Virus record (IMG/VR): IMGVR_UViG_3300046674_000362
Span: 1-64,000 of that record
Reading direction: 5' to 3' (one strand)
Source of the DNA: a virus
DNA length: 64,000 nucleotides
Part shown: positions 6,117 through 42,400 of the stretch, in pieces
Layout: every line of letters begins with the position of its first letter
Position numbering within the stretch: position 1 is the first letter of the stretch
Made by a program: the position numbers and the translations under genes
The notes under the pieces: model-generated
Told to the model about the DNA's origin: nothing
Seen by the model: the letters and a program-made list of their open reading frames with translations, nothing else
Databases searched by the model: none

Positions 6117-6965
6117 TTACGGGGTGCCGGGATCGTCGCCCGGCTCGTTCGGTTCCAGTCTCGCCAGCACATCGCGGGCGTGCTCGACGTGGTAGACGTA
6201 CATCACTTCTCCAGCCGCATGGCGCGCGAGTATCGACCGCGCCCGCTCGATGGCGATGTCTCGCGAGGGCTTCTTGTCCGCCAGCGAGGCCATCGCCTTC
6301 ATTGCAGCAGCGCGGGCCTCGGCTGAGGTCATCGCCTTGCCGTCGGCATCCAGCGGCGGGGGAGGAAGCTGCGGAACAAATGGTGGCACGGCCGGGCATC
6401 CCGGCTTGAGGCGCTTATCCAGCAGCTTTTTCCACCGGGCGGCGGCCTGCGAATAGCTCGCCTGCCGCAGCTCGTACTGCCCGAAGTCCACGGCTGCCCA
6501 GTACACGGCCGGGACCGGCCAGCTATCCTCTCCGGTGCGGCGCTTGCGCATTTCCCGCACGGCGTAGTTGAATGCGTCCTCATAGTCCACGGCCGGGCGG
6601 CACAGGGCGACGAACTGCCCTTCCGTCGGTGCCCAGTCTGTGTACTTGTCCCGGCAACGCTCGATCCCTTCGAGCGCCATCTGGAACGTGATGCCCTCGG
6701 AAATCAGCGTGTTCGACCACGCCTTTTTCCAGTCCGCGACGAGCTGCGGTGACGTGAAGTGCGAACTCCACTTGTGCATGTACATGGTCGCGAAGCGCCC
6801 ATACAGGCGGTCGATGGCCGACAGCATCCGGGGCACCTCGCGGACCCCGCCCATGCCATCGGGCTCTACGACCATCACCTCACGCGGCGCGTTCCACGAA
6901 TTAAGCGTCGATGGTGTAGGGCTCGGCTGCTGGGTAAGCTGGTGCTGCTGCGGCTGCTGGGACAT
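6117..6965 (-). CDS. Lambda P-like replication protein (helicase loader)
   Basis: 282 residues. The central region matches the phage replication protein P pattern: AIDRLYGRFATMYMHKW, then WKKAWSNTLISEGITFQMALEGIERC and WAPTEGQFVALCRP. In lambda, P delivers the host DnaB helicase to the O-origin complex. The first 65 bp overlap the end of the O-like initiator gene, keeping the O-P order. N- and C-terminal Pro/Gln/Ala-rich tails are probably disordered. Confidence 0.72.
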   Translation of the reverse strand: MSQQPQQHQLTQQPSPTPSTLNSWNAPREVMVVEPDGMGGVREVPRMLSAIDRLYGRFATMYMHKWSSHFTSPQLVADWKKAWSNTLISEGITFQMALEGIERCRDKYTDWAPTEGQFVALCRPAVDYEDAFNYAVREMRKRRTGEDSWPVPAVYWAAVDFGQYELRQASYSQAAARWKKLLDKRLKPGCPAVPPFVPQLPPPPLDADGKAMTSAEARAAAMKAMASLADKKPSRDIAIERARSILARHAAGEVMYVYHVEHARDVLARLEPNEPGDDPGTP

Positions 6966-8070
6966 TGGATGCTCCTGAATTCACGTAGGCGTTCGGGTCG
7001 AACTTGGGCGTGCGCGCCGGGGCGCTGCCGCCGTTCGAGTGCTGCGCGAGCTGGTCGGGCTTGACCGGGTACAGATCGGTCCATTTCCCGCTCATCACGC
7101 TTTGCTCGATCACGGCAACCGGGTCTTGCCCGGCGTCGCGCATCTTCGCCAGCTTTTTGATGCACAGCTCGGCAGCACGGTCAGTCATCGGTGCCTTGAC
7201 GGCAATCCGGTGCTCAGCCCAGTCATTCCATGCGGATTCAGGGAGCCAGTCGGGCAAGACTACGACCGGCGCAGCCGGTGCAGCCTTCGATTTCCTCGCG
7301 GCTTTTTTCGTAGGAGGTTTCTCTGGTGGATTATCTGATGGTTCTACTGGGGGTTCTGTGTCCCGTTTTTGGGACGGCTTCGGCGGAAAAACGGTACTGC
7401 TTGCGGGAAAAACGGTACTGCTTGCGGGAAAAACGGTACTGCTTGGAGCTGTGCCAAAAACGGCACCGCTTGAAGCTGTCCCGTTTTCGGCACCTCTTTC
7501 CCAGTGGGCCGCTTTCAACTCCTTCGATGCACCGTGCGGGGCATGCTCGTTACGGCAAAGCGGGTGGCCGCCAAGCTCGCGGAACGCGCGCAGCTCTGCC
7601 GCCTTGGCTTCCACTGGGTTGTCGAACACGGCCAGCACTTCGCGATGCAGGGGGATTTCACGGCTGAGCAAGTCCATGACCCAGCGCGAGCTGCCGCGAT
7701 AGGTGTCCAGCTCCGGGTCGCCGTTGAATGAGCGCATGCCGATGTAGAACTCGCCGGTTTCCGGGTTCGCGGTCCTGTAGACGTAATGGACAGCCGACGC
7801 CGACGGCATGCCGACGAGCTGGTAGACGATTACGCTCTTGGTCGCGCCGACGCGGTGGCCGGTGTCGCGCAGCAGCCCGGATTCACACAGGCGCTTGAGG
7901 TTGGCAAGGATGGTCTTGCGGTCCTGACTGGTATCGCGTGCCAGGGTGGCCGTGCTCGGGAAGCAGACCCCGCGCTCGTCGGCGTAGTTCGCCAAGCAGA
8001 CCATGATGAATTTCTCGCTCGACCGTGAAATATCGAGCTTGAGCACCCACGACATTGCTTCGATGCTCAT
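6901..8070 (-). CDS. Lambda O-like replication initiator with an embedded GIY-YIG-like domain
   Basis: 389 residues. Residues 1-85 form a replication-initiator HTH (KFIMVCLANYADERGVCFPSTATLA..RKTILANLKRLCESGLL). Residues about 93-180 have a GIY-YIG nuclease pattern: HYVYRTANPETGEFYIGMRS, then YRGSSRW (Arg) and a Glu-bearing helix AKAAELRAFRE. A Pro/Ser linker with three SSTVFPA-type repeats follows; its DNA forms candidate origin iterons. The C-terminus (DWLPESAWNDWAEHR..VIEQSVMSGKWTDLYPVK) matches the end of O-type proteins. It overlaps YbcO-like (ATGA) and P-like neighbours. Domain assignments are from motifs. Confidence 0.72.
   Translation of the reverse strand: MSIEAMSWVLKLDISRSSEKFIMVCLANYADERGVCFPSTATLARDTSQDRKTILANLKRLCESGLLRDTGHRVGATKSVIVYQLVGMPSASAVHYVYRTANPETGEFYIGMRSFNGDPELDTYRGSSRWVMDLLSREIPLHREVLAVFDNPVEAKAAELRAFRELGGHPLCRNEHAPHGASKELKAAHWERGAENGTASSGAVFGTAPSSTVFPASSTVFPASSTVFPPKPSQKRDTEPPVEPSDNPPEKPPTKKAARKSKAAPAAPVVVLPDWLPESAWNDWAEHRIAVKAPMTDRAAELCIKKLAKMRDAGQDPVAVIEQSVMSGKWTDLYPVKPDQLAQHSNGGSAPARTPKFDPNAYVNSGASNVPAAAAAPAYPAAEPYTIDA
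7361..7490. other. Candidate replication origin inside the O-like gene
   Basis: About 130 bp containing six copies of a 7-bp AAAACGG core: inverted near 7363, direct near 7388, 7409, 7430 and 7457, and inverted at 7481. Three lie in perfect or near-perfect 21-bp direct repeats. In lambda the O-binding iterons lie in the middle of the O gene, and these occupy the equivalent place. Origin function is inferred from position and structure. Confidence 0.5.
7385..7447. repeat. Three tandem 21-bp direct repeats (iterons)
   Basis: Units at 7385-7405, 7406-7426 and 7427-7447 share ggaaaaacggtactgcttg; the third differs only in its last two bases. A degenerate fourth copy follows at about 7454-7470. 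They encode SSTVFPA repeats in the O-like protein. They may serve both as a protein linker and as initiator binding sites. Confidence 0.8.
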
Positions 8071-10209: not shown

Positions 10210-10932
10210 ATGATAGGGATGGGCGCAACCTCAAACTCGTCAAATGGCGTGCGAGTGCCATCAACGACCGGCGAGCGCGTCAAGGCTCGCCGCCTGGAGC
10301 TGGACCTCTCGCAAACCGAGTTGGCGAACAAAGCGGGCCTGACTCAGCCGACCATATCGGGGCTAGAGAAAAATCGGTCGCACAGCAGCGGCAGCTTGGC
10401 GTCCATCGCGCGGGTGCTGGGCGTCAGCGCGCTATGGCTGGAAACGGGCATGGGTGATATGGTCCCATCGCATCCAGAAGAACCGCTTTCGGTCATCGTG
10501 GGCGATCCTGATGCGGTCATGGTCCCCCTGCTGGAGTGCAAGGGCAGTTGCGGCAATGGCCGCCTGTATGGCGACGTGGACTATTCCCCCATCACTATCA
10601 GCGCCCGGCTGCTGCGCTCGTTCTACGGGCGGGCCGCCAGTGAAAACCTCATCGCCTTGTATGCCGACGGCGACTCGATGGCGAGCTACATCATGCACGG
10701 CGACATCATCGTGTTCGACACTGGCATCGCCGACTTTCAGGAAAGCGGCATCTATCTGCTCGATACGCCTGACGGCCTGCGCGTCAAGCGGGTCAGCCGC
10801 CGCGCCGATGGCCGGGTTGTCCTGCGCAGTGACAGCCCGGATAAAACTCGCTTTCCCGACGAGGAATACAGCGCCGAGGAAGCGCCTCTCTTGACCGTCA
10901 AAGCCAAGTTTGTGCTGCGCATGGGCGGCTAA
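10210..10932 (+). CDS. CI-type repressor with LexA-like S24 peptidase domain
   Basis: About 240 residues from ATG 10210 (GAAGG five bases upstream; ATG 10198 is an alternative without an obvious RBS). HTH: LDLSQTELANKAGLTQPTISGLEKNRS (about 30-56). C-terminal S24 domain: GDSMASYIMHGDIIVFD with the catalytic Ser and LRVKRVSRR with the Lys. A Cys-Gly in SCGNG just before the domain is a possible self-cleavage site. This is the pattern of DNA-damage-inducible prophage repressors, so the phage is probably temperate and SOS-inducible. A terminator follows. Confidence 0.85.
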   Translation: MIGMGATSNSSNGVRVPSTTGERVKARRLELDLSQTELANKAGLTQPTISGLEKNRSHSSGSLASIARVLGVSALWLETGMGDMVPSHPEEPLSVIVGDPDAVMVPLLECKGSCGNGRLYGDVDYSPITISARLLRSFYGRAASENLIALYADGDSMASYIMHGDIIVFDTGIADFQESGIYLLDTPDGLRVKRVSRRADGRVVLRSDSPDKTRFPDEEYSAEEAPLLTVKAKFVLRMGG

Positions 10933-14299: not shown

Positions 14300-15547
14300 A
14301 TGTGGATCAGAAACGCCCAGGTGTACCGCCTCCCCGCCCCCTACGCAATGACTGCCGAAAAGCTGGCTGAGGCCATCGCGCATCAAAAATTCGTGCCTTG
14401 CACCAGCATGGAAAAGGACCGCTCGGGCTGGGTTGCGCCCTTCCCCGACGGTGAGCTGGTGCATGTGGTGAACCGCCAGTATTTCCTGAAGCTCTGCACG
14501 CAAACCAAGGTGCTGCCGGGCTCAGTCGTGAACAAGGAGCTGAAGGCGCGCGCCGCCGCCCTGGAAGAACAACAGGGCTTCGCGCCTGGGAAGAAGGCCA
14601 CCAAGGAGCTGAAGGAGCGCATCACCGACGAGCTGCTGGCGAAGGCGTTCGCGAAGGACGAGCACATGCTGGTCTGGATCGACCCGGTGAACGGCTGGCT
14701 GGTCATCGACGCGGCCAGCGCCAGCAAGGCCGATGCCGTGGTGAAGCTGCTGCTGAAGGCCATCGACAAGCTGCCGCTCGAATCGCTGCGCGTGCAGCGC
14801 TCGCCGGTTGCCGTCATGACCGGCTGGCTGGAGTCGGACGAAGCCCCGTATAACTTCACGATGGATCAGGATGCGACCCTGAAGGCGACCGGCGAGAGCA
14901 ACGCCACGGTGCGCTACCAGCGTCACAGCCTGGACCCGGAGGATATGCGCCGCCACATCGCCGCAGGCAAGCAGTGCGTGCGGCTGGCGATGACGTGGAA
15001 CAGCCGCGTGTCGTTCGTGCTGGACGAGTCGCTGACCATCAAGGGCATCAAGCCACTCGATGTCATCAAGGAAGGCACCGCGATCACCTACAGCGATCAG
15101 GAGCGCGCCGACAACGACCTCATGCTGATGTCTGGCGAGCTGTCGAAGCTCCTGGGCGATCTGGTCGAGGCGATGGGCGGCGAGGCGAAGGATGGCGAAG
15201 CGGGCAGCGATGGCCAGCAGCAGATCGCCGATGGCAGTGCCCACGAGGCGGTCCGCAAGCTGCACCAGATGGCCGCGAGCGAGGGCGTGAGCGCCACCCT
15301 GATCTACGGTGACAAGTCCGTGACGTTCGGCGCGAAGCTACCGCCTGATGGCGAAGGCGACGACGCCGCCATGTACGAAAAGGCCGTCGCTATCGTGCGT
15401 CAGCACCAGCGCGCATCTATCTCCCTGGTCCAGCGCCACCTCGCCATCGGCTACAACCGCGCCGCGCGCCTGATGGAACAAATGGAAGCCAAGGGCGTCG
15501 TCGGCCCGATGGAGTCGAACGGAAACCGCACCATCATCAACCAATAA
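14300..15547 (+). CDS. rdgC: RdgC fused to an FtsK-gamma winged-helix domain
   Basis: 415 residues. Residues 1-~305 match RdgC, a ring-forming DNA-binding inhibitor of RecA loading: MWIRNAQVYRLPAP, VNRQYFLKLCTQTKVLPGSVV, DPVNGWLVIDAASASKAD and VRLAMTWNSRVSFVLDESL. After an acidic linker, residues ~350-413 match the FtsK gamma domain almost motif for motif: AVAIVRQHQRASISLVQRHL, IGYNRAARLMEQMEAKGVVGP. In host FtsK this domain reads KOPS sites and contacts XerD. The fusion would give RdgC sequence-directed DNA binding; that consequence is inference. Confidence 0.8.
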   Translation: MWIRNAQVYRLPAPYAMTAEKLAEAIAHQKFVPCTSMEKDRSGWVAPFPDGELVHVVNRQYFLKLCTQTKVLPGSVVNKELKARAAALEEQQGFAPGKKATKELKERITDELLAKAFAKDEHMLVWIDPVNGWLVIDAASASKADAVVKLLLKAIDKLPLESLRVQRSPVAVMTGWLESDEAPYNFTMDQDATLKATGESNATVRYQRHSLDPEDMRRHIAAGKQCVRLAMTWNSRVSFVLDESLTIKGIKPLDVIKEGTAITYSDQERADNDLMLMSGELSKLLGDLVEAMGGEAKDGEAGSDGQQQIADGSAHEAVRKLHQMAASEGVSATLIYGDKSVTFGAKLPPDGEGDDAAMYEKAVAIVRQHQRASISLVQRHLAIGYNRAARLMEQMEAKGVVGPMESNGNRTIINQ

Positions 15548-15565: not shown

Positions 15566-16510
15566 ATGAATACCACGAAAACCCCTGCCGCTGCCGCCGC
15601 ATCGCAGTTTGTGTCCCTCAAGGCCGCTGCCGAGGACAAGGCTAATCCAGCCGTCGGCAAGGAAACCACTTTCAAGGTTGACCCGCGTGTGATCGAGATT
15701 CAGCCGGGCTTTAACCGGCCGATCAGCCGCGAGCACGTCGAACAGCTCAAGACCTCGATTCGCAACGGCGCGACCCTGCCACCGATCTTCGTCCGCGTCG
15801 AGCCGGGCCGCATCATCATGGTGGATGGCGAGCACCGCTGGATCGCCGTCATGGAGCTGATCGCCGATGGCATGGAAATCCCGTTTATGTCGGCCATCCA
15901 GTTCCGGGGCAGCGACGCCGACGCCATCGCGCACTTGCTCACCAGCGCGCAAGGGCAGGCAATCTCGCCGCTCGACCAGGGCATCCAGTATCTCAAGCTG
16001 GTGCGCCTGCACTGGGACGTGAAGATGATCGCCGCGCGTACCGGCAAGAGCACCACGCACATTGAAAACTGCCTGACGCTGGCCGAGGCGAATACCGACG
16101 TGCAGCAGGCCGTGCGTAACGGCGAGGTCGCAAGCTCGCTGGCCGTCGATCTGGTCAAGGAACACGGCCCCGAGGCCGGGAAGGTTATTCAAACCGAGCT
16201 GGTCAAGGCCAAGGACAGCGGCAAAACCAAGGTGACGCGCGCCAGCGTGCAGGGGCGCGCGGTGCCGCGCAAGCTGGTGGATCGCGTCGAGAGCAACATG
16301 CGGACCCTGTTCGAGTCGCGGCCGGACCTGACGGCCGAGGGACTGGCCGAGCTGCCCGAGGGTGCTTCGGTATCGGTTCCGGCCGCCCTGCTGGCCGAGC
16401 TGCGCGCCGCACATGATGAGGTGCAGAAGATGCGCGCCAAGGAAGCGGCGGCCGCTGCGGCTGCGCCCCAGGCACCAGCCACCCCCGAGGAAGGCACCGG
16501 CAACGAATAA
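15566..16510 (+). CDS. ParB/Srx-type nuclease-like or partition-like protein
   Basis: 314 residues. N-terminal ParB/Srx domain: RVIEIQPGFNRPISREHVEQLKTSI, PPIFVRVEPGRIIMVDGEHRWIAV (the GEHR box). An HTH region follows (VKMIAARTGKSTTHIENCLTLAEAN, SSLAVDLVKEH). The C-terminus is Ala-rich. It could be a phage ParB-like regulator or part of a partition apparatus, though the ParA-linked partner further downstream is a different small basic protein. Good AGGAG RBS. Confidence 0.65.
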   Translation: MNTTKTPAAAAASQFVSLKAAAEDKANPAVGKETTFKVDPRVIEIQPGFNRPISREHVEQLKTSIRNGATLPPIFVRVEPGRIIMVDGEHRWIAVMELIADGMEIPFMSAIQFRGSDADAIAHLLTSAQGQAISPLDQGIQYLKLVRLHWDVKMIAARTGKSTTHIENCLTLAEANTDVQQAVRNGEVASSLAVDLVKEHGPEAGKVIQTELVKAKDSGKTKVTRASVQGRAVPRKLVDRVESNMRTLFESRPDLTAEGLAELPEGASVSVPAALLAELRAAHDEVQKMRAKEAAAAAAAPQAPATPEEGTGNE

Positions 16511-16695
16511 TGCAACTCTCATTCTTTGATGAGCTTGACGCGCCCGCACCGGCACCCGCCCAGGTTGCGGTCGCGTCACGAATAATCGAGACTCCGCATG
16601 CGCGCTGCCCGGCGTGCGGCTCGATGTTCCTGGCAGTCGAGTGGCTGGCATGGCGCAAGGCTGGTTACTGTCGTGAATCACATCAACCCAAATGA
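16510..16695 (+). CDS. Small zinc-finger-like protein
   Basis: 61 residues: an N-terminal LSFFDELDAPAP motif, then RCPACGSMFLAVEWLAWRKAGYC, a C-x2-C..C arrangement. QLSFFDEL resembles a sliding-clamp or partner-binding peptide, but I cannot show that. Start overlaps the ParB-like stop (TAATG). The 3' end runs into the repeat-rich partition region. Confidence 0.5.
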   Translation: MQLSFFDELDAPAPAPAQVAVASRIIETPHARCPACGSMFLAVEWLAWRKAGYCRESHQPK

Positions 16696-16742
16696 TAGCG
16701 AATCACATAACTCCATATTATTTGTATCCACATCATTTCATG

Positions 16743-16770
16743 TGACATCACATCAGATGATGTGATGTCA
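16743..16770. repeat. 13-bp-arm palindrome built from the centromere motif
   Basis: TGACATCACATCA, a 2-nt gap, then TGATGTGATGTCA. It is two face-to-face copies of the regional repeat and the most perfect binding-site candidate of the partition locus. Confidence 0.75.
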
Positions 16771-16783
16771 ACTCACATAACTC

Positions 16784-16819
16784 AGCCGCCACGCCCGTTA
16801 CAAGGAGTTGGCGGCTTTT
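16784..16819 (+). terminator. Terminator of the recombination operon
   Basis: AGCCGCCA (16784-16791) pairs with TGGCGGCT (16809-16816) across a 17-nt loop, followed by a short T run. It ends transcription ahead of the partition genes. Confidence 0.6.
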
Positions 16820-16916
16820 CGCGCCGAATGCGATGTTAATTGATGTCAAATGATGTCATATCACATCAAGTTAAGTAGGCAAAATCGATATGATGTGATG
16901 TTATATCAATCTATGT

Positions 16917-17083
16917 CATCTTAAATAATTCAATATCGCATTAGGTGATTTAATGTGACTCGACACGGAATAGCCTCATGTAAATCCATTTGAAATAGTT
17001 CAACATGGTATTAGATTTCCCTTGCGTGAACTTATAAAGAGTCTGATAATCGCGAGTGTTATCAATCCACCAAGGGGAAGCGC
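16917..17083 (+). promoter_or_regulatory. parA promoter region
   Basis: AT-rich, no gene. A weak sigma70-like pair is TTGAAA (16990-16995), a 16-nt spacer and TAGATT (17012-17017). AAGGGGAAG at 17072-17080 serves as the parA ribosome-binding site. Looser relatives of the centromere word extend to about 16955, so the promoter is probably repressed by the partition proteins. Confidence 0.4.
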
Positions 17084-17725
17084 ATGAATGTCTTGATCGC
17101 AGGCGAGAAGGGCGGCACCGGGAAAACCACCACGTCAATTAACATGGCCGTGGCGCGCGCGCTGGCGAGCCGTGATGTGCTGCTGGTGAACGCCGACAAG
17201 CAAAACAGCGCTGCGGAGTGGGCGGCGATCCGGGCTAGAGAGAAAATCGCGCCGAATATCACTTGCGTTTCGATTCTCGGGGCAACGCTGGCCGACGAAA
17301 TCCGCAGGCTCGAAGGGAAGTTTGAGGACATTATCATCGACGCAGGCGGCATCGACTCGCTCGAACTGCGCTCGGGGATGCTGGTCGCCGACGTGATCGT
17401 GACGCCTGCCCGCCCGTCCCAGTTCGACGTTTTCACGCTGGCGAAGATGGACAAACTTGTGGCCGAGGCAAAGGCGTTCAACACGAAGCTCACGGCCGCG
17501 ATCCTCTGCAATTGCGCGCCGACGCACCCGAACAGCACCGATGCGCAGGAAATGGCCGAGTACGTCGATGGCCTGCAAAACTACACGATGCTGCAAACTA
17601 TCGTCCGCCAGCGCAAGGTGTACCAGAACTGCGCCCGCGACGGCATGGGCGCGCTCGAATACGTCCGGGGCGATGAAAAGGCAATCGCTGAAATGACCGC
17701 CCTCGCTGCGGAGATTTGGGCATGA
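17084..17725 (+). CDS. parA: ParA-type partition ATPase
   Basis: 213 residues. Deviant Walker A with signature Lys: GEKGGTGKTTTSINMA (7-22). Then VLLVNADKQNSAAEW (switch I region; NADKQ rather than the usual DxDPQ) and Walker B FEDIIIDAGGID. The short length with no N-terminal HTH fits the type Ib (ParF/ParA-small) class, which segregates low-copy plasmids with a small DNA-binding partner. The upstream repeats and downstream partner gene complete the locus. Confidence 0.82.
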   Translation: MNVLIAGEKGGTGKTTTSINMAVARALASRDVLLVNADKQNSAAEWAAIRAREKIAPNITCVSILGATLADEIRRLEGKFEDIIIDAGGIDSLELRSGMLVADVIVTPARPSQFDVFTLAKMDKLVAEAKAFNTKLTAAILCNCAPTHPNSTDAQEMAEYVDGLQNYTMLQTIVRQRKVYQNCARDGMGALEYVRGDEKAIAEMTALAAEIWA

Positions 17726-18273
17726 ACCAGAAAAAGAAACAGGGCTTTCGTAGCCCGAGCGAGTTTGTCGAGGCTGCGAACGAAGCGCCCGCCTTGATGC
17801 ACGTTGATCCGGCAGGCGGCGTCACAGTCGTCAAGGCGGGCGACAGCGCCACAGCGCCAGCGCCAGAACTGACCCCGGCACCCACTCCAGCACCGGCCCA
17901 GGCAGCAGGGGAGGGCGCACCGGCTGCACAGGAGGCCGCACAGGCAACGAACGAGGGCAAACCGGCACAAGCACCAGCGCCAGCGAAGGACAAGCCCCAG
18001 CGGCCCGCAAAACCGGCCGCTGACAAGCCCGGCATCCACACGCACAGGCGCGCGGACGACGGCCCGCCCGAGCCGCCCCCGGCACCGTGGGACAGCGAAA
18101 GCCCGGACATCAAGGGTCCGGGCTATCAATACCGCTTCGACAAGCGCCTACACGCGCAGATTCAGTGGATTTCGGACAACGTACCGCAGCACAAGTCCAT
18201 GCAAGTCGTCATCGACAAGGCCGTGCGCGCATACGTCGCCGAAGTCCTCGAAAAGCACTACAAGCCCGAATGA
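17722..18273 (+). CDS. ParB-like centromere-binding partner of ParA
   Basis: 183 residues from ATG 17722, overlapping the parA stop (ATGA), with GGAG nine bases upstream. The N-terminal ~120 residues are disordered Pro/Ala-rich sequence ending in basic and Pro clusters. The C-terminus (YQYRFDKRLHAQIQWISDNVPQHKSMQVVIDKAVRAYVAEVL) is a short helical DNA-binding unit of ribbon-helix-helix or wHTH type. Gene order and size match the second gene of type Ib partition operons. I cannot assign a named family. Confidence 0.6.
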   Translation: MNQKKKQGFRSPSEFVEAANEAPALMHVDPAGGVTVVKAGDSATAPAPELTPAPTPAPAQAAGEGAPAAQEAAQATNEGKPAQAPAPAKDKPQRPAKPAADKPGIHTHRRADDGPPEPPPAPWDSESPDIKGPGYQYRFDKRLHAQIQWISDNVPQHKSMQVVIDKAVRAYVAEVLEKHYKPE

Positions 18274-22763: not shown

Positions 22764-24389
22764 TTATCGCGAAAGGGTTTGGGTAACGGTGATTGCGCGA
22801 ACCACGCCGTCGTAATGCAGGCTGTAGGTCACGTCCATACGGTCGGCCGGGCGCACCGCGTTGCGCTTTACGTCGAAGGCATAGCCGTTGTCGCCGAGTT
22901 CCGGCTCATCCGAGGCCACCAGCCAGCCGGACGAGCGCGCAGCGTCGAAAGTCGCCTTCAGGAACTTGCGCATCTTGGCGGTGGCCGGGTCCATCGGCAG
23001 TTGCACGACTTCCTTGCCGTACTTCGCCACCATGTCGTCCAGCGATGCGCTCATTTCGGCGACGGAAATCAGCTTGCGGTAGGACGTGGAAACCTTCGCG
23101 CAGGTGAGCGAGTCGGTGAACACGTAGCGGCCGCCGCCGTTGTAGCGCTCGTAAATGACCGGGTTGATCTTCGCCAGCGCCAGATCGTTCAGCTCGGGAT
23201 CGCTCGGGGTATAGAGCTGCTTGACGCCGGTACGCGCCAGCGGCCATTCCTTGCCCGCGACCGGCGTGTTCTTCGGTGCCAGCCCGTAGGCGTTGGTCTG
23301 CGCGTTTCGGGCGCAGCGCAGGCCGACGTTGTAGGCCGAGGTGCCGATGACCGCCTTGCCACCATTTACCGGGTCGTCTGACTGCAACGGTGCCCAGTAT
23401 GCTTGGCAGTAGTGCGAGTCCAGGCCGAGCTGTGCGATGAAGGCTGCGGCAGCGGCCGGGGTCAGGTTGCCCGGAATGTCGAACACGAATTGGCGATTCG
23501 CGCGCACCGCGAGCTGCCCGAGCTTCGACAGCAGCGCAGCCGCTTGAGAGCCGCCGCCCACGATGTAGGCGAAGTCGTTCGGGCTGTTCTCCAGCAGGCT
23601 GATCGCCTTGTCGTAGTTCGCGACGGTGTAGCCGGTGCCGCCTTCGGTGAACAGCACCAGCGGCGACGCGCCACTCGTTGCGATCTTGGTGGTGCCGTCG
23701 GCATTGCGGCCGTAGCAGTCGGCAGTAATCGGGATCGACGCGCCAGCGGCGACGTTGATCGTGATTTCATCGGTTTGCTTCGCGATGACGGAGCCGATGA
23801 AATAGTCCTGCCCGAAGTCGTCCACGGCGGCTGGGTCCAGCGAGCCGGTGAACTCGAACATCAGGTTGCCGTTCGGCTCGCGCACGCGCAGGGTGATGAC
23901 TTTGGCCGGGGCCGAGGTCACGCCGTCCGCGCCCAGCACCTTGTCGGCCTGGACTTCGAGCTGGATGCCGTCGTTGAAGCAGCCGAGGTGCTGGAGATAG
24001 AACAGGAACGGGGCAACCGGCACGGTCGGGCTGACCGTAAATGCCGATGCGCTGCCGGTGATGTTGAACACCGCGTAGCTGTTGACTGCCGCATCGGTGA
24101 CGAGGCGCGTGAGCACCAGTTCCGATGCGCCGCCGTCGAGCGCTTCGACCGCATGGACATACGCCTCGTTCAGCGCAGAAATGCGGATCGACTCGGGCGC
24201 ACCCAGGACCGACAGCCGGTTGCCGCGATTGACCTTGAACGGCGCGTCGATGCGGCCGCGACGGAAGCGGCCGATGAGGGCCGCAACCTGATCGCTTGCA
24301 TCGGCGGCGAAACCATCCGTGTTGTCACGGAGCGGGTTAAGCTGGACGCCGGGTTGCGCGCCAAGTTGGCGCGTATGAGAATAGAACAT
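22764..24389 (-). CDS. Contractile tail sheath protein
   Basis: 541 residues, the usual size. N-terminus GVQLNPLRDNTDGFAADASDQVAALIGRFRRGR, a central insertion, and the conserved C-terminal part: NAQTNAYGLAPKNTPVAGKEW, ELNDLALAKINPVIYERYNGGG, RYVFTDSLTCAK. It forms the sheath that contracts on infection and identifies this phage as a myovirus. It is co-transcribed with the capsid gene. Confidence 0.85.
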   Translation of the reverse strand: MFYSHTRQLGAQPGVQLNPLRDNTDGFAADASDQVAALIGRFRRGRIDAPFKVNRGNRLSVLGAPESIRISALNEAYVHAVEALDGGASELVLTRLVTDAAVNSYAVFNITGSASAFTVSPTVPVAPFLFYLQHLGCFNDGIQLEVQADKVLGADGVTSAPAKVITLRVREPNGNLMFEFTGSLDPAAVDDFGQDYFIGSVIAKQTDEITINVAAGASIPITADCYGRNADGTTKIATSGASPLVLFTEGGTGYTVANYDKAISLLENSPNDFAYIVGGGSQAAALLSKLGQLAVRANRQFVFDIPGNLTPAAAAAFIAQLGLDSHYCQAYWAPLQSDDPVNGGKAVIGTSAYNVGLRCARNAQTNAYGLAPKNTPVAGKEWPLARTGVKQLYTPSDPELNDLALAKINPVIYERYNGGGRYVFTDSLTCAKVSTSYRKLISVAEMSASLDDMVAKYGKEVVQLPMDPATAKMRKFLKATFDAARSSGWLVASDEPELGDNGYAFDVKRNAVRPADRMDVTYSLHYDGVVRAITVTQTLSR

Positions 24390-32373: not shown

Positions 32374-33147
32374 TTACATGAAGGTGTCGAACTGGGTAAA
32401 TACTAGTTGGAGCTGCTGGAGCGTGTCATCGCTGCGCGACAGCTCAATATCAATCGAGGATGGGCGCACCACGAAGGTTTCCTTGTAGCTGCCGAACAGC
32501 GAGCCGCCGATTTCGTCAATGGCCGACTGGGTGACGCGCATGGTGATGAGGTAATCGACCGGCAGGCCAATGGTCCCGTCCTGATGCTCGATCTTGGAAC
32601 ACTTGGCATCGAACCACTTCCTGATCGTGCCCTTCGTATCGTCGTAGGTCGTGATGCGCAGCTCGACCCGCTCGGACCCGGTTACGATGTCAAACTGCGC
32701 CATCCCGACGGCCTTGGCCTCACTGGTGATCGTCCACGGCCCGTAGGCCACGTCGGTGGCGAACAGGTTGAAGGCATGGCTGATGTCCTTGGAGCCACTC
32801 GGGGGCTTCCAGTCCTCGATTTCGAGGAACCACAGATTTTTCTTGGAATACTGCGTCGCCTGGACTTCGGCTGCGATCCGGCGCGCTTCGTCCAGCGTGA
32901 TCCCGCCCAGCAGCGGGTTTTTCTTCAGCGCCTTGGCGATCTTGCCGGTGACAAACCCGGTGAGGCCATCGGCCACCGCACCCGCGAGGTCGCCGCGCAG
33001 GGCGCGCGAGGCGGCCCCTTGCAGGCTTTTCGGCACGAACTTGCCGATCACGGAATTTCCGAGCGACTGGCCGATAGCGCCCAGCGAGGGAATCCGGCTC
33101 GATACGTTGGCCGTTATCTGACTTGCGATGGAGTCGAACAGGCTCAT
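32374..33147 (-). CDS. Tail/baseplate structural protein
   Basis: 257 residues. N-terminal Gly/Ala helical region (LGNSVIGKFVPKSLQGAASRALRGDLA), then a beta-rich domain (NLWFLEIEDWKPPSG, FNLFATDVAYGPWTITSE, YLITMRVTQSAIDEIGGSLFGSY) of the tube-fold type found in T4 gp19/48/54 relatives. It starts within the portal stop (ATGA). Precise role unknown. Confidence 0.5.
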   Translation of the reverse strand: MSLFDSIASQITANVSSRIPSLGAIGQSLGNSVIGKFVPKSLQGAASRALRGDLAGAVADGLTGFVTGKIAKALKKNPLLGGITLDEARRIAAEVQATQYSKKNLWFLEIEDWKPPSGSKDISHAFNLFATDVAYGPWTITSEAKAVGMAQFDIVTGSERVELRITTYDDTKGTIRKWFDAKCSKIEHQDGTIGLPVDYLITMRVTQSAIDEIGGSLFGSYKETFVVRPSSIDIELSRSDDTLQQLQLVFTQFDTFM

Positions 33148-34724
33148 CCTTCAGCGCCTCCACCGGCACCGCCGAATCCACCGCCACCGCCACCGAATCC
33201 GCCGCCGCTGCCGTCATCTTCGGCCGGGGGCTTCGCCATGCCCTTGACGATCAGATCGGCCTGATCCTCGTCCAGCAGCATGATCTTGGTCAGCACCTCC
33301 TTCAGCGCCGCATCATCCAGCCTCAAGTCGCGCAACTGGGCAAGTGTCTGCGCCATGATCGCGCCGGTATTCATTGCCTCGGACTTGGTTTTCTGGCGCT
33401 CAGTTTCGAGCGCGCTGATGGTGCCGTAGAAGTTGACTACCCAGGGGCGCTCATCGGCCGTGAACACATAGCCGTATTTGCTGTACGTGTGGATGTCGAT
33501 GACATGGTTGAAGAACTCCGTCATGCCCACGCGCAGCAGGCGCGAGCGCTCTGCGGCCTGCGCCGAGGTGCGGAAGAACCCGCCGTCACCCAAACCTCCC
33601 GACAGCAGCTCGGCAAAGCCCAGCATGGACAGGTCGATCCCCAGCGCAGCGGCCAGCATCTTCGCGTGAAACAGCACGTCCTCGATACTGATGCTGCCAC
33701 TCGTGCCGCGCCCACCGCCGCCCGTCAGCGTGCCATTCAGGGCGGTGAGCTGCTTGTCGCCGTAGACCGGCATCAGGTTGTAGACGCGGGACAGGACCGG
33801 CCTGCCCGATGCGATAGCTTCCTCGGCGCGCTTTTTCGATGCGGTCAGGATCGACTTCAGGTTCGTCATGTAGGACTTGCGCTGCTCCTTCGTCATGCTG
33901 TCCATGTTCACGGTCAGCATGGACTCGTCAATCGAGTCGAGCACCCGCTGGCCGACAAGACCGGCGAGGGCCGCCGACAGCGCATCGTATGGACCTTCGG
34001 CGCTGTCGAGGAACGAGCCGCCGATCAGCGACGGCAGCAGCGGCAATTCGTTGATGTCGTCCTCCTTGAGCGCCAGCCGGATCGACTTCTCGACGGCGCG
34101 CACCTGGGGGATGTAGACCATGCGCGGCATCTTCATGCGCGCCATCTGGTCGAGGCCCAGGCGCTCGGTGAACTTCGGGCCAGATGCGACGACAAAGCCC
34201 ACCGTCGTGTTACCCCGTTCGTAGGATGTCACCATCGCCGGATGCACGATTTCGTCCACGTAGACATCGACCACGCCGCGTTTGCCGTCGGTGTACACGC
34301 GGCCGTAGGCGTCGCCATAGGCTGCGCCGTGGAAGCCGACTGTATAGGCGATGCGGTTCAGGAGCGGGGCCAGATCGGCGCGGATTTCATCGACAATCTT
34401 CTGTTTGGCCTTGTCATCCTTGAAAGCGGCCGCAGCCTCCAGAAACACCACGTCACCGGATGTCTCATGCCCTCCCAGGGCGGCCGTGACGTGCAGGCGC
34501 AGGGCCGTGGAAATGATGGGATCGCCCACCATTTCAATCCACTTCTGGTAAATCTGCTGGCGGTTCCGCGCAAGCCGCTTCGTACTGCCCAGCAGCATCG
34601 AAACGGACAGGCCATCGGTCATTGCATCCGATTCCTCGGCCTGCCCGATCTGGTGGCTGGCGACGTGCTTGCGGCCGAAAAGGCTGGCGATAAACCCTTT
34701 GACGCGGCTATCTGATTGGGGCAT
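33144..34724 (-). CDS. Portal protein
   Basis: 526 residues. Portal-like order: an N-terminal region with KWIEMVGDPIISTALRLHVTAALG, LNRIAYTVGFHGAAYGDAYGRVY, a helical stem, FHAKMLAAALGIDLSMLGFAELLSGGLGDGGFF (typical of myovirus portals), and a Gly-rich tail (SGGGFGGGGGGFGG). It is the dodecameric DNA gate at one capsid vertex. It heads a late unit after a terminator and late promoter. Confidence 0.72.
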   Translation of the reverse strand: MPQSDSRVKGFIASLFGRKHVASHQIGQAEESDAMTDGLSVSMLLGSTKRLARNRQQIYQKWIEMVGDPIISTALRLHVTAALGGHETSGDVVFLEAAAAFKDDKAKQKIVDEIRADLAPLLNRIAYTVGFHGAAYGDAYGRVYTDGKRGVVDVYVDEIVHPAMVTSYERGNTTVGFVVASGPKFTERLGLDQMARMKMPRMVYIPQVRAVEKSIRLALKEDDINELPLLPSLIGGSFLDSAEGPYDALSAALAGLVGQRVLDSIDESMLTVNMDSMTKEQRKSYMTNLKSILTASKKRAEEAIASGRPVLSRVYNLMPVYGDKQLTALNGTLTGGGGRGTSGSISIEDVLFHAKMLAAALGIDLSMLGFAELLSGGLGDGGFFRTSAQAAERSRLLRVGMTEFFNHVIDIHTYSKYGYVFTADERPWVVNFYGTISALETERQKTKSEAMNTGAIMAQTLAQLRDLRLDDAALKEVLTKIMLLDEDQADLIVKGMAKPPAEDDGSGGGFGGGGGGFGGAGGGAEG

Positions 34725-36432: not shown

Positions 36433-39400
36433 TTACACGAGGTAGTCTTTGATGTTCAGCCCCAGGTGCGCAAACAGCGATGCCACCGAAGCCACGTCCT
36501 TGCCATCGCTGAACTTCTCGCCGTCCTTGATGGTCAGGCGGAATGCCTTGCTCACGTTGTCGAACGTGCGGCCTTGCAATCCGGCTGCGCCTGCGGTGGC
36601 GATCTTTTCATGGGTCGGCGAACCGCGAGTCGTTTTAAGCAGAATGTATTCGTTGGCCTTGTAGAAGTAGCTCGCGGAATAGCGGTCTGCCGTTTTCATG
36701 TCGTCCAGGGTGCCCAGCTCGGCCGAGTTGACGCCCGGCACGCGGCGCAGCGCCTTGAGCATCCCGTCGAGGTCCACGCCTGCGGCATCAAGCGACTGCT
36801 TGGCGTTGTAGCCCTTGGCGTAGCTCCGCAGGCTCGACCAGATCGCGCCCACGTATTCCTGGGTGAGCTTTGCCGCCGTCGCCCAGTCCTTGACGTACAT
36901 GCGCGCCGAGGCCGGGAGTTCTTGGCTGCTGCGGGCATTGTCCGCGCCCGCCACCAGCTCGACATACTCGCCGGTTTCCTTGAACAGCAGCTCGGCGAGC
37001 GCGCGGCCGTTCTTCTCGTAGAAAGCAAAGTCCGGTGAATAGCTGGGCGCGGCCATGATTTCGCTCGCCAGCGTCCCATCCTGCACGGCCTTGGAAATCG
37101 CAGCATACGCTGGGGAGGTGATGACGTACTTGCTCGACTCAGGGAACAGATGCCAGCGCTCCACACCATCATCAATCTTGTTGCGGGTCTTGGTGTAGGT
37201 GGAGTACAGGTAGCCCAGTGCGTCCTCCAGCGAGTCGATTTCCGCGACTTGCTGCTCGGTGCGGAACCAGTTCAGCGCCCAGGTGTCCAGCTCGTCCGGC
37301 GACTTCACGCTTGCCACGCCGCCCGGCAGCGCCAGCTTGAACGCCTCGTCAATGTCCAGCGCGGCGAGCGCCTTGCCGATGGTCAGGCCCGGCGTGATGG
37401 CGTCCAGATCGGCCTTCGTGACACGCAGCTTGTGCGCCACGACGTACACGGCCAGCTCCTTGAACTTGGCTTCGGGCGTCGCATAGCCGCCGTCACCGAC
37501 GTTGCGCAGGTCGGTCAGGATGATCTGGCGATAGCCCTTGCCGTAGGACTGGATCAACGGCGCTTGCTCGGCCCTGATCTTGTCCGTCAGCTCGCCGCCC
37601 TTGGCATCCTGATCCAGCACGAACGGGAAGTAGGGCGCTTTGAAGCGGAAGCTGTCTGCGGTCATGGCGGCCGACGGAATCGGAACGTCCAGCGCCTCGC
37701 GCACGTCGGCCACCAGGGACGAATACAGCGACAGGTCGCTGGCCGTGAACGCGCCAACGGTTGCGATGGTCGCCTTGTCAGCCGCGACGGCGCGCGCTAC
37801 CGTGGCCGCCCATTCCTCGGAGCCGCGTGCGATGAAGGTTGCGCCAGTCATGCGCAGCAGCTCGGTATCGGTCAGGTCGGCCGGGTTGAAGCCCACCAGA
37901 CTGGTGCCGCGTCCGCGCGTCGGCTTGCGCACGACCAGCAGCTTGTTTTCAAAGTCCACGAAGCTGCCCACCACGGCCAGCGAGCCGGTCACGATTTCCG
38001 CCTCGCCCGCGTTGAAGGCGTCCAGATCGTCCTTGCTGTAGCCGTCGCCCGCGCGCATGTTGAAGCTCACGGCCGCCTCGTCCCTCATGCGGGTGGCGAT
38101 GCCCAGGTCTTTCTGCCAGTTCGCATAGGCTGCCGTTTCCTTCATGGCGTCGGTAAGCCCGCCGAATTCGGACGGCGCAACCGGCGTGCCGCGCGAATCG
38201 AGAGACAGGCCGCCCAGCAGCGAGAGCTGGTCCTTACGCTTGGATTCCAGTTCGGTGATCTGCCGGGACAGGCGAGCGGCCAGAATCGGGCCTTCGGTTT
38301 CGGACAGGCGCTCTTGCAACTTGTCGATGGCGCTGCGGGTCTGGTTCGCAGCCGCGAGCTTGGCCTTGACCCATTCCACGAAGCCGGTCAGCGGGCGATG
38401 CGCCGAGCCCTCGCCGTACTTGGCGAGCCACTTGGTCTGCGCGTCGATGATGCGCAGGCTTTGGAGCTGGGCCACGCGCACGGCCGCGCGCTTCTGGCGC
38501 TTCTGGCGCTGCTCAATTTCCTCGCTGATGCGGTTCATCGCGCCAGCGTCGCCGACGGCGTTCGCCAGCAGCTCGTAGTCCTCCTTACTCATATCGCCCT
38601 CAATCTTGATCGAGGTCGAATCGCCATTCATCAGCGAGCCGATCCAATCGGCCTTGATGCCCACGAGCTTGCGCTTGTAGCCGTCGAACGTGCCGTCGGC
38701 GTCGTAGTGGTACACGCTCACTTTCGATACCGGGTTGCCCTGACGGACGCCGCGACCGTTGCGCTGATGGATCGAGTCAGGCGTCCAGCCGATAGTCATG
38801 TGGTGGATCGCTTGGCAGCCTTTTTGCAGGTTGATGCCCACCTCGGCCTTTTTGTTCGCAATAACGACGGTGTATTTATTGTCCTCGCCATCGGCGTTGA
38901 AACCGTCCTGCACGTCCTGCATACCGGCCGTGTCCACGGAAACCGCGTTGACGATCTTGATTTTCGATGCCGGGACGCCCACCGCCTGCGTCAGCGCCAG
39001 CTTGATCTTGTGGTGCAAGCTCAGCTCATCGCAGAAAATGATCTGCTTGGCCTGCCCCATCCAGCGCGGCGTCGCGGCTTCGTTGCGGAAGTTCTCGATC
39101 ATCGCGGCCAGCTTCGGGCTGATGCTTACCGACGGCTCGATGTCTTGCGCCGCCAGCAGCTTCAGCAGCACGTCCTGCGTCTCGAAGTCGGTAGACAGCA
39201 GCTCAACAGCCCGGCCATCGGCGGCCGCGCGGGTGCGCACGGTGATGAGGAACTTGGTGACGGACTCGCCGGTTTCCACGTCCTTGACCACGCGGGTTTT
39301 GATGTCGGCCGGGTCAGCGTTCGGGTCGCTGTAGTCGCGTTCTTCGACAACGTTTTTCTTGTTGAATGCCGCGATGGCCTTGGCCGCACCTTCAGCCTGG

Positions 39401-42400
39401 GCCGCCGTGTGCTTGAACTTGAAAATGCCGCCGTCCAGCTCGCGGTCGTTGATTACCCGAGTCATTTTGCGGATCAGGTTGAACGGGCTTGCGGCCAGCT
39501 TTTCCTCGGCCGTCGCACCGCCAGCCTTGACTGCCTCGACCGCATCCATGTACTCGTCCTTGTAGCCCAGGATGGTGCTCATCGCGTCCGAGCCGATGTC
39601 CACCGAGACAGCCACCTCATCGGCATCCGGCACCGAGATATTCAGGCCGTCGGCCTTCACATCCTCGGCGGTCTTGATGACGGCAGAGGTTTGCAGCAGG
39701 CGGCGCAGAAGGCCCGCATTGGACAGGCCGCCGAACACGCGCACCGGGCGCATGATGCCGACAATGTTTTCTTCCTCGCGCTCGTCAATGTCGCAGGCGG
39801 CCGCCATGAAGGAATCCGCGCCGGTCACGCCGTACATGGAGTTGACTTCACGCTCGCCCAGCGCCAGCGTCAGCATCGCATAGACTTCCAGCGGGGAGTT
39901 CGTCACCGGGGTCGCGGTCAGCGACAGCACGCCATCGTTGCGCGGCGACAGGCCACGGATGAACCATGCTTTCGCCTGCATGTCCATGCCGCGCTGTGAC
40001 TTGGACGGGTCAGCCAGATACTTCGCGCCCTTGAACTGGGAGCTGGTCATCTTGCTGTTTTTGTAGTTGTGCGCCTCGTCCAGCACCAGCGAGTCCACGC
40101 CCATATCCTCGAAGTAGGGCAGCGCGCCGGACTTCTCGCCGGTATCCTTCACGGCCTTGGATTTGCTGTCGGCGGCGATGTTGGCCTTCTTCTTATTCGC
40201 ATCTTCCTCGGCCAGCAGGTAGGCATCATCGTTCTCCGTCAGGTATTGGATGTACGCCTGCATGGTTTCGTCGCGCAGCGGGATCATCTTGAACGCCTCC
40301 AGCGTCATGAAGATTTTGCTGTGACGGTTCTCGCGGATCGCGTTCAGGTCGGCTTTCACCTGGGCGGCGTCGATCTTGTCCTTGCCGTTCTTGCCCTTGA
40401 CCAGTCCCACGTACAGGCAATCGGACGTGTCCAGATACGCCTTGCCGCTTTCCTTCTTCCAGTTGGTCAGGGTGGCGTTCGGCACCACGAAGATGGTCTT
40501 GCGCTTGACGCCGATGCTCTGGCAATACTGGGCTGCCGCGAGCGCGGTCAGGGTCTTGCCGAGGCCCACGTCGAAGCCCAGGACGCCGCCGAAGTTGCGC
40601 GAGAACCGGCGCACGGCCGCATACTGGTAGGCGTGCGGGCGGAAGTCCAGCGAATTGAGGTTCGGGATTTCCAGCGGCGAGCCGTCCGGCTCCTGTACGA
40701 AGCGCAGCGCCTCGGGCGAGTTCAGGCGCGCATGGAGGCCCGCTTGCACTTCCTCGTTGGCGCGCGCCCAGGCGTCGAACTGGGCTTTCGCGCGGTCGGC
40801 GATTTCCTTGATGCGGCGGACCAATGCGGCTTCCTTGTCCGGGTCCGCCTCCACATCCACCTGCTTGTTCTGCGTCGTGATGTTCTGGTTCTTGAGATAG
40901 CCCTTGACGAAGCGCTGCATGGCCTTGTGCGCGGCGGCTTCCTCCTCGGATGCCCACTTGCTCAGCGACGGCTGCTTAATGTCGAACACGTCGCGGCCCA
41001 GTGCGTCCTGGGTCATGAAAATGTCCGGGCTCACGTAGGCGCGCAGGAATTCCAGCTTTTGCAGCATCGTGACGTGCGGCGTGAACAGGCTGAACGTCAT
41101 TTGCGACACATCGACCGGGTTCAAGCGGGCCTTGGCCGTCTCGTGCTGGCGCACCAGCTTGGTGCGGATCGCCGGATCGTCGCACGCTTCCAGCTCGGCG
41201 GCGGCCGCCTTCAGGAAGTCGGCATAGATGCCGGTGTAGTAGTCGTTGGCATGGATCACGGCCTTACCGTCGGCCGACACGCACCATTCCTCGTCGGTGA
41301 GCGGGTCGAAGCCCGAGAATGCCGCCTGCATCTTCTCGACCGGCACATAGCCCGATTCGTCCTCGGCTTCGTACTTGACCTTTTCGTATACCTGGGACGG
41401 GGTGAGGGCGATGGTCTGGAGGTCCGGGGCGATCTGGCCCAGCCAGAACGGGGTGAATTCGCCCTTGGTGCGGGCGGTGCGGATCGACAGCAAGCCATCC
41501 TTCACGACCTTGGCGGCGCGGCCGAGGGTCTTGTTGCCGTAGGACTGGACGCGCGCGAGCTGCGCCGACAGGACCGGGTAGCCGTCCTTGTAGTTGTACG
41601 GCTCAACGCTGCTGGCATCCTGCGACAGCCCCATGACGGCCAAGCCCGCGCTGATCGCTTCCCACCAGCTCTGGCGCTCGTTGTCGGCGAGCTGGTCGAG
41701 CGAATTGCGCACGGCCAGCAGCCAGTTCGGGGTGCTCATGTGGCGGCCCTTCAGGTTCTCGTAGGCGATCCAGCGCCCCACCTGATCCCACTTGATGCCG
41801 TTGTTGACGCAATCCAGCGGGGTCTGCACCTTCTGCCCGATGGCCTGCATTTCCTTGTCCTCGCCCACGTTTGCGTCGAGCGCGACCCATGCGCCATCCT
41901 TCCATTCGAGGGTTTGGCCGTTCGAGTGGATCACGTCGCCGTCGGCGTACACGATAGGGGCGGTTTCGGTCGTGTTCAACAGCTCCCAGTCGATGTGCGA
42001 CGCCGGGAAGCGCTTGATGAGCTTCGCGATGTTGCTGATGGTGTCGTTGTTGATGACGGCGGCGACTTCGCCATAGCGGCCGGTGGTCGTGCCTTCCTCG
42101 CCGAGAATGTACTTGCGGCCAGCGCCAACGAAGTATTTGCCGGACAAGAATTCATCCCACAGCACGCGCGCTTCGCCCAGGATGGCCGGGTTCTGCTCTT
42201 GCAGCTCGGCGATCTTGGTCGCGGCTTCGCGGGAGAACTTGCGGAACACGATCAGGTCGGTGGTCACGTCGGCGGCGGCCGTCGTGAAAATCGAGTTGGG
42301 CAGGCGGTACGCGCCCAGGAATTCGGCCATGAGGCTGGCGCTGGTGCGCAGCTTCGATTCCTTGCTCGACAGGCCGGACACGATGGACTTGGGCACGATG

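Follow-up and report, generated by a model that had tools for sequence, protein, structure and literature searches.

The gene pair at 17084-18273 and the repeats that precede it are, with a probability that we put at roughly 0.86, an active-partition locus serving an extrachromosomal prophage: a temperate, P1-related myovirus kept in the lysogen as a low-copy circular plasmid. The segregation cassette stands where related viruses have an integration enzyme, and the dormant state is most likely a separate circular plasmid. The window analysed is the first 64,000 nucleotides of IMG/VR record IMGVR_UViG_3300046674_000362, and positions refer to it unless the full record is named.

The partition cassette

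The locus contains the following features.

15566-16510, + strand: ParB-like protein with ParB_N and ParB HTH domains (HTH_ParB 4.8e-6; phrog_1033 1.6e-60), upstream of the repeats
16678-16903, no strand assigned: candidate centromere (parS), located by octamer count and 7-mer z; its TGATGTSA octamers point in either direction and are frequently spaced by 5 or 10 bp
16743-16770, no strand assigned: palindrome of 28 bp within the array, with the sequence TGACATCACATCA-GA-TGATGTGATGTCA
17022-17050, + strand: sigma-70-type promoter for parA (TTGCGT-17 bp-GATAAT), shortly after the repeats and ahead of the gene
17084-17725, + strand: parA, a ParA/ParF-type ATPase of 213 aa
17722-18273, + strand: partner of parA, candidate centromere-binding protein of 183 aa

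A sequence-only reading of this DNA had described a small ParA with the Walker A motif KGGTGKTT and no N-terminal HTH, overlapping by ATGA with a 183-aa protein, and both observations hold. The Walker A motif is of the deviant type. The ParA protein begins with MNVLIAGEKGGTGKTT, and matches AAA_31 (1.5e-12) and CbiA (5.2e-12) in Pfam and the ParA-like family phrog_164 (5.8e-34); its best PDB sequence match is ParF of TP228 (4dzz, 1.4e-11). The definition of type Ib ParABS systems includes a small ParA (about 200-250 aa) with a deviant Walker A motif and no N-terminal HTH (PMC9178275). Here the ParA is small and lacks the HTH, the partner gene follows directly downstream in the operon, and the repeats lie upstream. 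This type Ib-like layout, as proposed from the sequence, recurs in relatives, mostly with a repeat motif of their own.

The repeats had also been picked out in that reading, together with the palindrome, which is perfect (13-nt arms, 2 nt between them, 100% complementary). The array is AT-rich, and 9 of the 11 TGATGTSA octamers in the genome fall within 16678-16898, about 220 bp. Dinucleotide shuffles of 16660-17083 give 0.17 octamers where 9 are found (largest count 2 in 2000 shuffles), and 0.9 copies of TGATGT where 11 are found (largest 7). In the 573-bp gap that precedes parA, repeated 7-mers score z = 8.0, compared with 0.2 to 2.9 in four control stretches. The pattern TTGC-N19-GATAAT of the promoter has a single match in the window (0.06 expected), and this promoter is kept in the relatives G001 and G002 despite their different repeats. 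The 600 bp upstream of parA is enriched in repeated 7-mers in all seven ParA-type loci (z 5.0 to 17.6), the motifs being mostly different: ATCACAT/TGATGTSA here, ACCAAAC in G002, ACCACAC in G001 and GGTATCA/GATACCA in G005. As for the loci with a StbB-type ATPase (see below), the array of G004 is not enriched (z 0.5), while that of G003 is, but in GC-rich words.

The partner is the least familiar component. It consists of a basic N-terminus, a Pro/Ala-rich linker of about 100 residues and a strand-helix-helix C-terminal domain (residues ~133-180), the last being conserved among homologs. Classical type Ib partners are shorter than 183 aa. Searched alone against Pfam, PHROG, PDB and phage proteins it matched no family, and its family assignment is made only because of the loci of relatives. 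AlphaFold, with 7 alignment rows, predicts helices at 141-153 and 160-179 with pLDDT ~90; a prediction of the last 63 residues alone was uninformative. When the fold is compared with ribbon-helix-helix proteins it resembles ParD (7ycw, TMt 0.72, rmsd 1.2), no match being statistically significant. On the basis of the model, the C-terminus is likely to adopt a ribbon-helix-helix-like fold.

A closed genome, its replication genes and a dif-like site

Outside the cassette, the following features bear on the lifestyle of the phage.

2-880, - strand: N-terminal part of terL (phrog_5902 and phrog_2 terminase), continuing at 84675-85354 of the record
6117-6878, - strand: lambda P-like helicase loader (phrog_109 4.4e-23)
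6901-8070, - strand: lambda O-like replication initiator (phrog_678 1.4e-33, phrog_1032 1.1e-27)
7385-7445, - strand: candidate origin, made up of 2.9 perfect 21-bp iterons within the O-like gene (100% matches in Tandem Repeats Finder)
10255-10932, + strand: CI/LexA-type repressor, indicating a temperate lifestyle (HTH_3 1.9e-11, Peptidase_S24 4.8e-10)
14300-15547, + strand: RdgC with a C-terminal FtsK gamma fusion, in the same gene cluster as par (RdgC 3.8e-106, FtsK_gamma 2.7e-25)
22764-24389, - strand: tail sheath, the basis of the family tree (phrog_1036 tail sheath 1.8e-138)
33144-34724, - strand: portal (phrog_1497 5e-164), 70.5% identical to the pBVIE05 portal and 28% to P1 Prt
72748-72775 of the record (L001:8748-8775), - strand: dif-like XerC/XerD site of 28 bp, ACCGCGCATAA-TTAGCA-TTATGTAAAAT
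78031-78645 of the record: serine recombinase of the resolvase/invertase type, 204 aa

The full record is 85,481 bp long. It has an exact 127-bp direct repeat at its ends, and terL stays open over the closed junction, giving a frame of 519 aa; the genome is therefore a closed circle of 85,354 bp. Such circularity is not in itself proof of a plasmid, because circularly permuted headful packaging also gives a circular assembly. Neither a tyrosine integrase (PF00589) nor a large serine recombinase was found in the complete record. An integrase had been reported as missing from the window, with a search of the rest of the genome suggested as a check, and that search, run on the closed genome, likewise returned none. 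The serine recombinase was considered as an integrase and rejected, as it consists of a resolvase domain and an HTH without PF07508. Scans of the window for Rfam families and tRNAs gave no hits, so that no known antisense or att-tRNA clue is available from them.

The gene set for virion and packaging is complete, with terminase, portal, sheath, tail and lysis genes, and RecT, an exonuclease, Pmg-type head proteins and an endolysin are also encoded. The CI/LexA repressor noted in the earlier reading is indeed present. A protein of 2267 aa at 36433-43236 is 57-82% conserved in the plasmid clade, and the homolog on pBVIE05 bears the annotation SNF2-related. An Hcp-like gene lies on the minus strand at 82932-83423 of the record (L002:2932-3423; T6SS_HCP 1.5e-39, phrog_27303), and a comparison with ten relatives found it in none of them. 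It raised the question of whether the right end of the record is host DNA, which was rejected in that the record closes inside terL and the Hcp matches a phage family. FtsK gamma is the domain with which FtsK recognises KOPS and switches on XerD. The RdgC-FtsK-gamma fusion is not a marker of the plasmid clade, being found in some members of it and also in some integrase-bearing relatives.

The O-like gene has homologs in G002 and G004 (51-52% identity). Residues 94-164 of the initiator match the homing-endonuclease family phrog_314 (2.4e-5), which looks like a GIY-YIG-type domain inserted in the O-like replication protein. Searches of this phage, G002, G003 and G004 returned neither a Rep_3 nor a TrfA initiator, whereas Rep_3 is present in pBVIE05, G005 and G006 and TrfA in G001, each beside par. 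The G001 gene (L142:15002-15997) is of the TrfA type known from IncP plasmids. For this phage and the Rep-less G002 and G004, it is conceivable, though we consider it unlikely, that the lambda-like O/P replicon with its O-gene iterons serves both lytic growth and low-copy maintenance, with no separate plasmid replicon; partition and host XerC/XerD resolution would then secure segregation, and RdgC-FtsK-gamma might activate resolution.

The scan for dif-like sites was begun in order to test integration at dif. The site found here agrees at 18 of 20 arm positions, and 100 dinucleotide shuffles reach only 13-16. The usual dif centre is TGTAYA, from which the centre TTAGCA differs. In each of G001-G004 a site scoring 18-19 of 20 lies at the syntenic place and its centre is TCTATC or TCTTTC, so that such a site is found in five of the eight clade members; in pBVIE05 and G005 an exact XerD arm, TTATGTCAAAT, is paired with a weaker XerC arm, and G006 gave an equivocal result. 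No dif-like site was found in the seven integrase-bearing relatives scanned. About 100 bp of flank on the XerC side is conserved in this phage and G001-G004, and in G002-G004 there are inverted repeats resembling TCGACAATA-N7-TATTGTCGA on this side, 27-33 bp from the arm. The accessory sequences of ColE1 and pSC101 also lie on the XerC side (PMC11724359). Set against the definition of a cer/psi-type site (a length of 28-30 bp, two 11-bp arms, a centre of 6-8 bp and an accessory sequence on the XerC side), the 28-bp length, the 18/20 arm score and the XerC-side block suggest that this is probably a plasmid multimer-resolution site.

Relatives with and without an integrase

Relatives were gathered with a tail-sheath profile, and 27 records were searched whole. 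In the sheath tree this phage and seven relatives form one clade (support 100/99). Partner homologs are present in all eight and in none of the 19 more distant relatives, while an integrase is found in 0/8 and 14/19, respectively. The integrase is a tyrosine integrase in 13 records (in G013 below the family cut-off), and a large serine recombinase was found only in Rb1 among the relatives searched. The other five of the 19 have neither integrase nor partner, and several of these may be fragments. The difference between par and integrase is a single switch in this sample and not many independent events, and because the tree shows one switch the Fisher test (p = 0.0006) is not counted as evidence.

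Every clade member has a ParA or a StbB-like ATPase, and six have the small serine recombinase. Among the relatives, ParA-type ATPases are found in G001, G002, G005, G006, pBVIE05 and G025, the last being a 49.5-kb record that was found through its ParA and left off the tree. In G003 (L146:6962-8729) and G004 (L034:16183-17942) the same place is occupied by a deviant StbB-like ATPase and a StbC-like gene together with the partner homolog. These ATPases were missed by PF13614 alone and were found by inspecting the loci; the Stb names are our reading of the sequences, for which Pfam gave a weak CbiA match. In these two phages the motor has apparently been exchanged and the adaptor, that is the partner, retained.

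Among the closest known relatives is pBVIE05 (CP000621) of Burkholderia vietnamiensis G4, a finished circular plasmid of 88,096 bp that is syntenic with this phage. Its gene order is RdgC, ParB-like, repeats, ParA, partner, second partner paralog, Rep_3 initiator, the partner lying directly downstream of ParA as it does here. It resembles this phage in its portal (70%), its ParA and partner (40%), its CI repressor and its small serine recombinase, and differs in the second partner paralog, the Rep_3 initiator beside par and the repeat motif. It is recorded as a plasmid only, its phage functions being mostly not annotated as such, and in the open-access literature we found no paper that has pBVIE05 or Paraburkholderia phage-plasmids as its subject, which is weak evidence of novelty. 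G005 (contig NODE_24 of the isolate assembly of Paraburkholderia sp. C35; 93,160 bp with a 77-bp self-overlap) likewise has ParA, partner, second partner paralog and Rep_3. Terminal repeats are present in G001 (127 bp), G003 (127), G005 (77) and G006 (105), and in none of the three integrase-bearing records tested. The closed genome without an integrase, together with the circular relatives pBVIE05 and Paraburkholderia sp. C35, supports the earlier suggestion of a low-copy extrachromosomal plasmid prophage.

It is of interest that these phages define a P1-related phage-plasmid clade, its hosts apparently being Burkholderiales, which is distinct from the P1 and D6 groups of enterobacteria and whose integrating cousins share the virion. 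In the sample, partition, the XerC/XerD site, the serine recombinase and exchangeable Rep genes accompany the absence of an integrase. The clade and its cousins thus offer a clean comparative system for the change from integrated to plasmid prophage and, because the repeat motif differs between phages, also one for the co-evolution of partner and centromere.

Alternative readings, mechanism and known systems

Counted against the partition-plasmid reading are the lack of a Rep_3 or TrfA initiator here, a partner with no Pfam, PHROG or PDB family and a non-significant fold match, and the fact that the tree contains a single switch. The succession of ParB-like gene, repeats and parA could be taken to mean that the ParB-like protein binds the repeats as its parS, with the 183-aa partner as an auxiliary, and the gene, with its ParB_N and HTH domains, is indeed present in 8/8 clade members. 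However, the same ParB family occurs in the integrase-bearing relative G018, and a Curvibacter phage carries a related gene; it is the partner and not ParB that is translationally coupled to parA; and G004 keeps the ParB-like gene while its ParA is replaced by the StbB-like ATPase and its upstream array shows no enrichment (z = 0.5). We therefore regard this assignment as quite improbable.

Less probable still is that the prophage integrates at the chromosomal dif through host XerC/XerD, with 72748-72775 as its attachment site. This would account for a conserved site with 18/20 arm matches, but a centre that matches dif would be expected of a phage integrating there, and the 6-bp centres vary among relatives (TTAGCA, TCTTTC, TCTATC, TTGTAT, TTTAGT) and also differ from that of dif; relatives occur as circular replicons that carry Rep genes; and the conserved flank is on the XerC side, as in plasmid resolution sites (PMC11724359). 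It might also be argued, given that a plasmid Rep gene was not identified in this phage, that the cassette no longer partitions, being a decayed remnant or a regulatory pair in a lytic phage or an unpartitioned episome. We consider this very unlikely, in view of the intact reading frames, promoter, array and overlap, the 67-74% identity of ParA to its counterparts in G001 and G002, and the presence of the CI/LexA repressor.

On the partition-plasmid reading, we hypothesise that the TGATGTSA array is the centromere and that the partner, dimerised via a ribbon-helix-helix-like C-terminal domain, binds it and can thereby also control the promoter at 17022-17050. The basic N-terminus of the partner would stimulate ATP hydrolysis by nucleoid-bound ParA, setting up a ParA gradient that moves sister plasmids apart. 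Multimers, which would defeat partition, would probably be resolved at the XerC/XerD site by the host recombinases, by the small serine recombinase of the phage, or by both.

Type Ib partition is an established system (PMC9178275, PMC9499535). ParFGH of TP228 and delta/omega of pSM19035 have, like the locus here, a small ParA without HTH, a small coupled partner and an upstream repeat array, and ParF of TP228 is the nearest solved structure to the present ParA. The partner differs in its 183 aa and long linker, sequence similarity to the TP228 and pSM19035 partners being undetectable, and the octamers are at 5- and 10-bp offsets rather than being contiguous 7-bp WATCACW heptads (PMC9499535).

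This phage shares with P1 and D6 a related portal (28%), P1-type Pmg head morphogenesis families and, on our reading, a plasmid prophage. The ParA of P1 is the long type Ia form. D6 has a ParA-like protein 36% identical to the one here, followed by an overlapping small ORF, orf61 (96-residue class), and additionally a StbA/StbB pair. P1 uses Cre-loxP (PMC2409434), whereas no tyrosine recombinase was found here, and because the record has no PF00589 match we do not place this phage in the P1 group (Punavirus). P1-like phage-plasmids are already established (PMC10879196, PMC12977533); the typed P1 and D6 groups in PMC12977533 are enterobacterial, and the present clade lies outside them. Xanthomonas phage Rb1 (PQ569993) is similar in portal (53%), sheath (51%), CI and RdgC, but has a 632-aa large serine recombinase and lacks ParA, partner and ParB. 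The replacement itself has a parallel in the mycobacteriophages of cluster A, where parABS takes the place of the integration cassette within one phage group and most such phages have no RepA (PMC7157519); those phages and hosts are unrelated, and here it is a P1-related myovirus that shows one deep switch in the sample. Phage-plasmids and the exchange of integrase for par are already known, and this phage is a well-supported new example.
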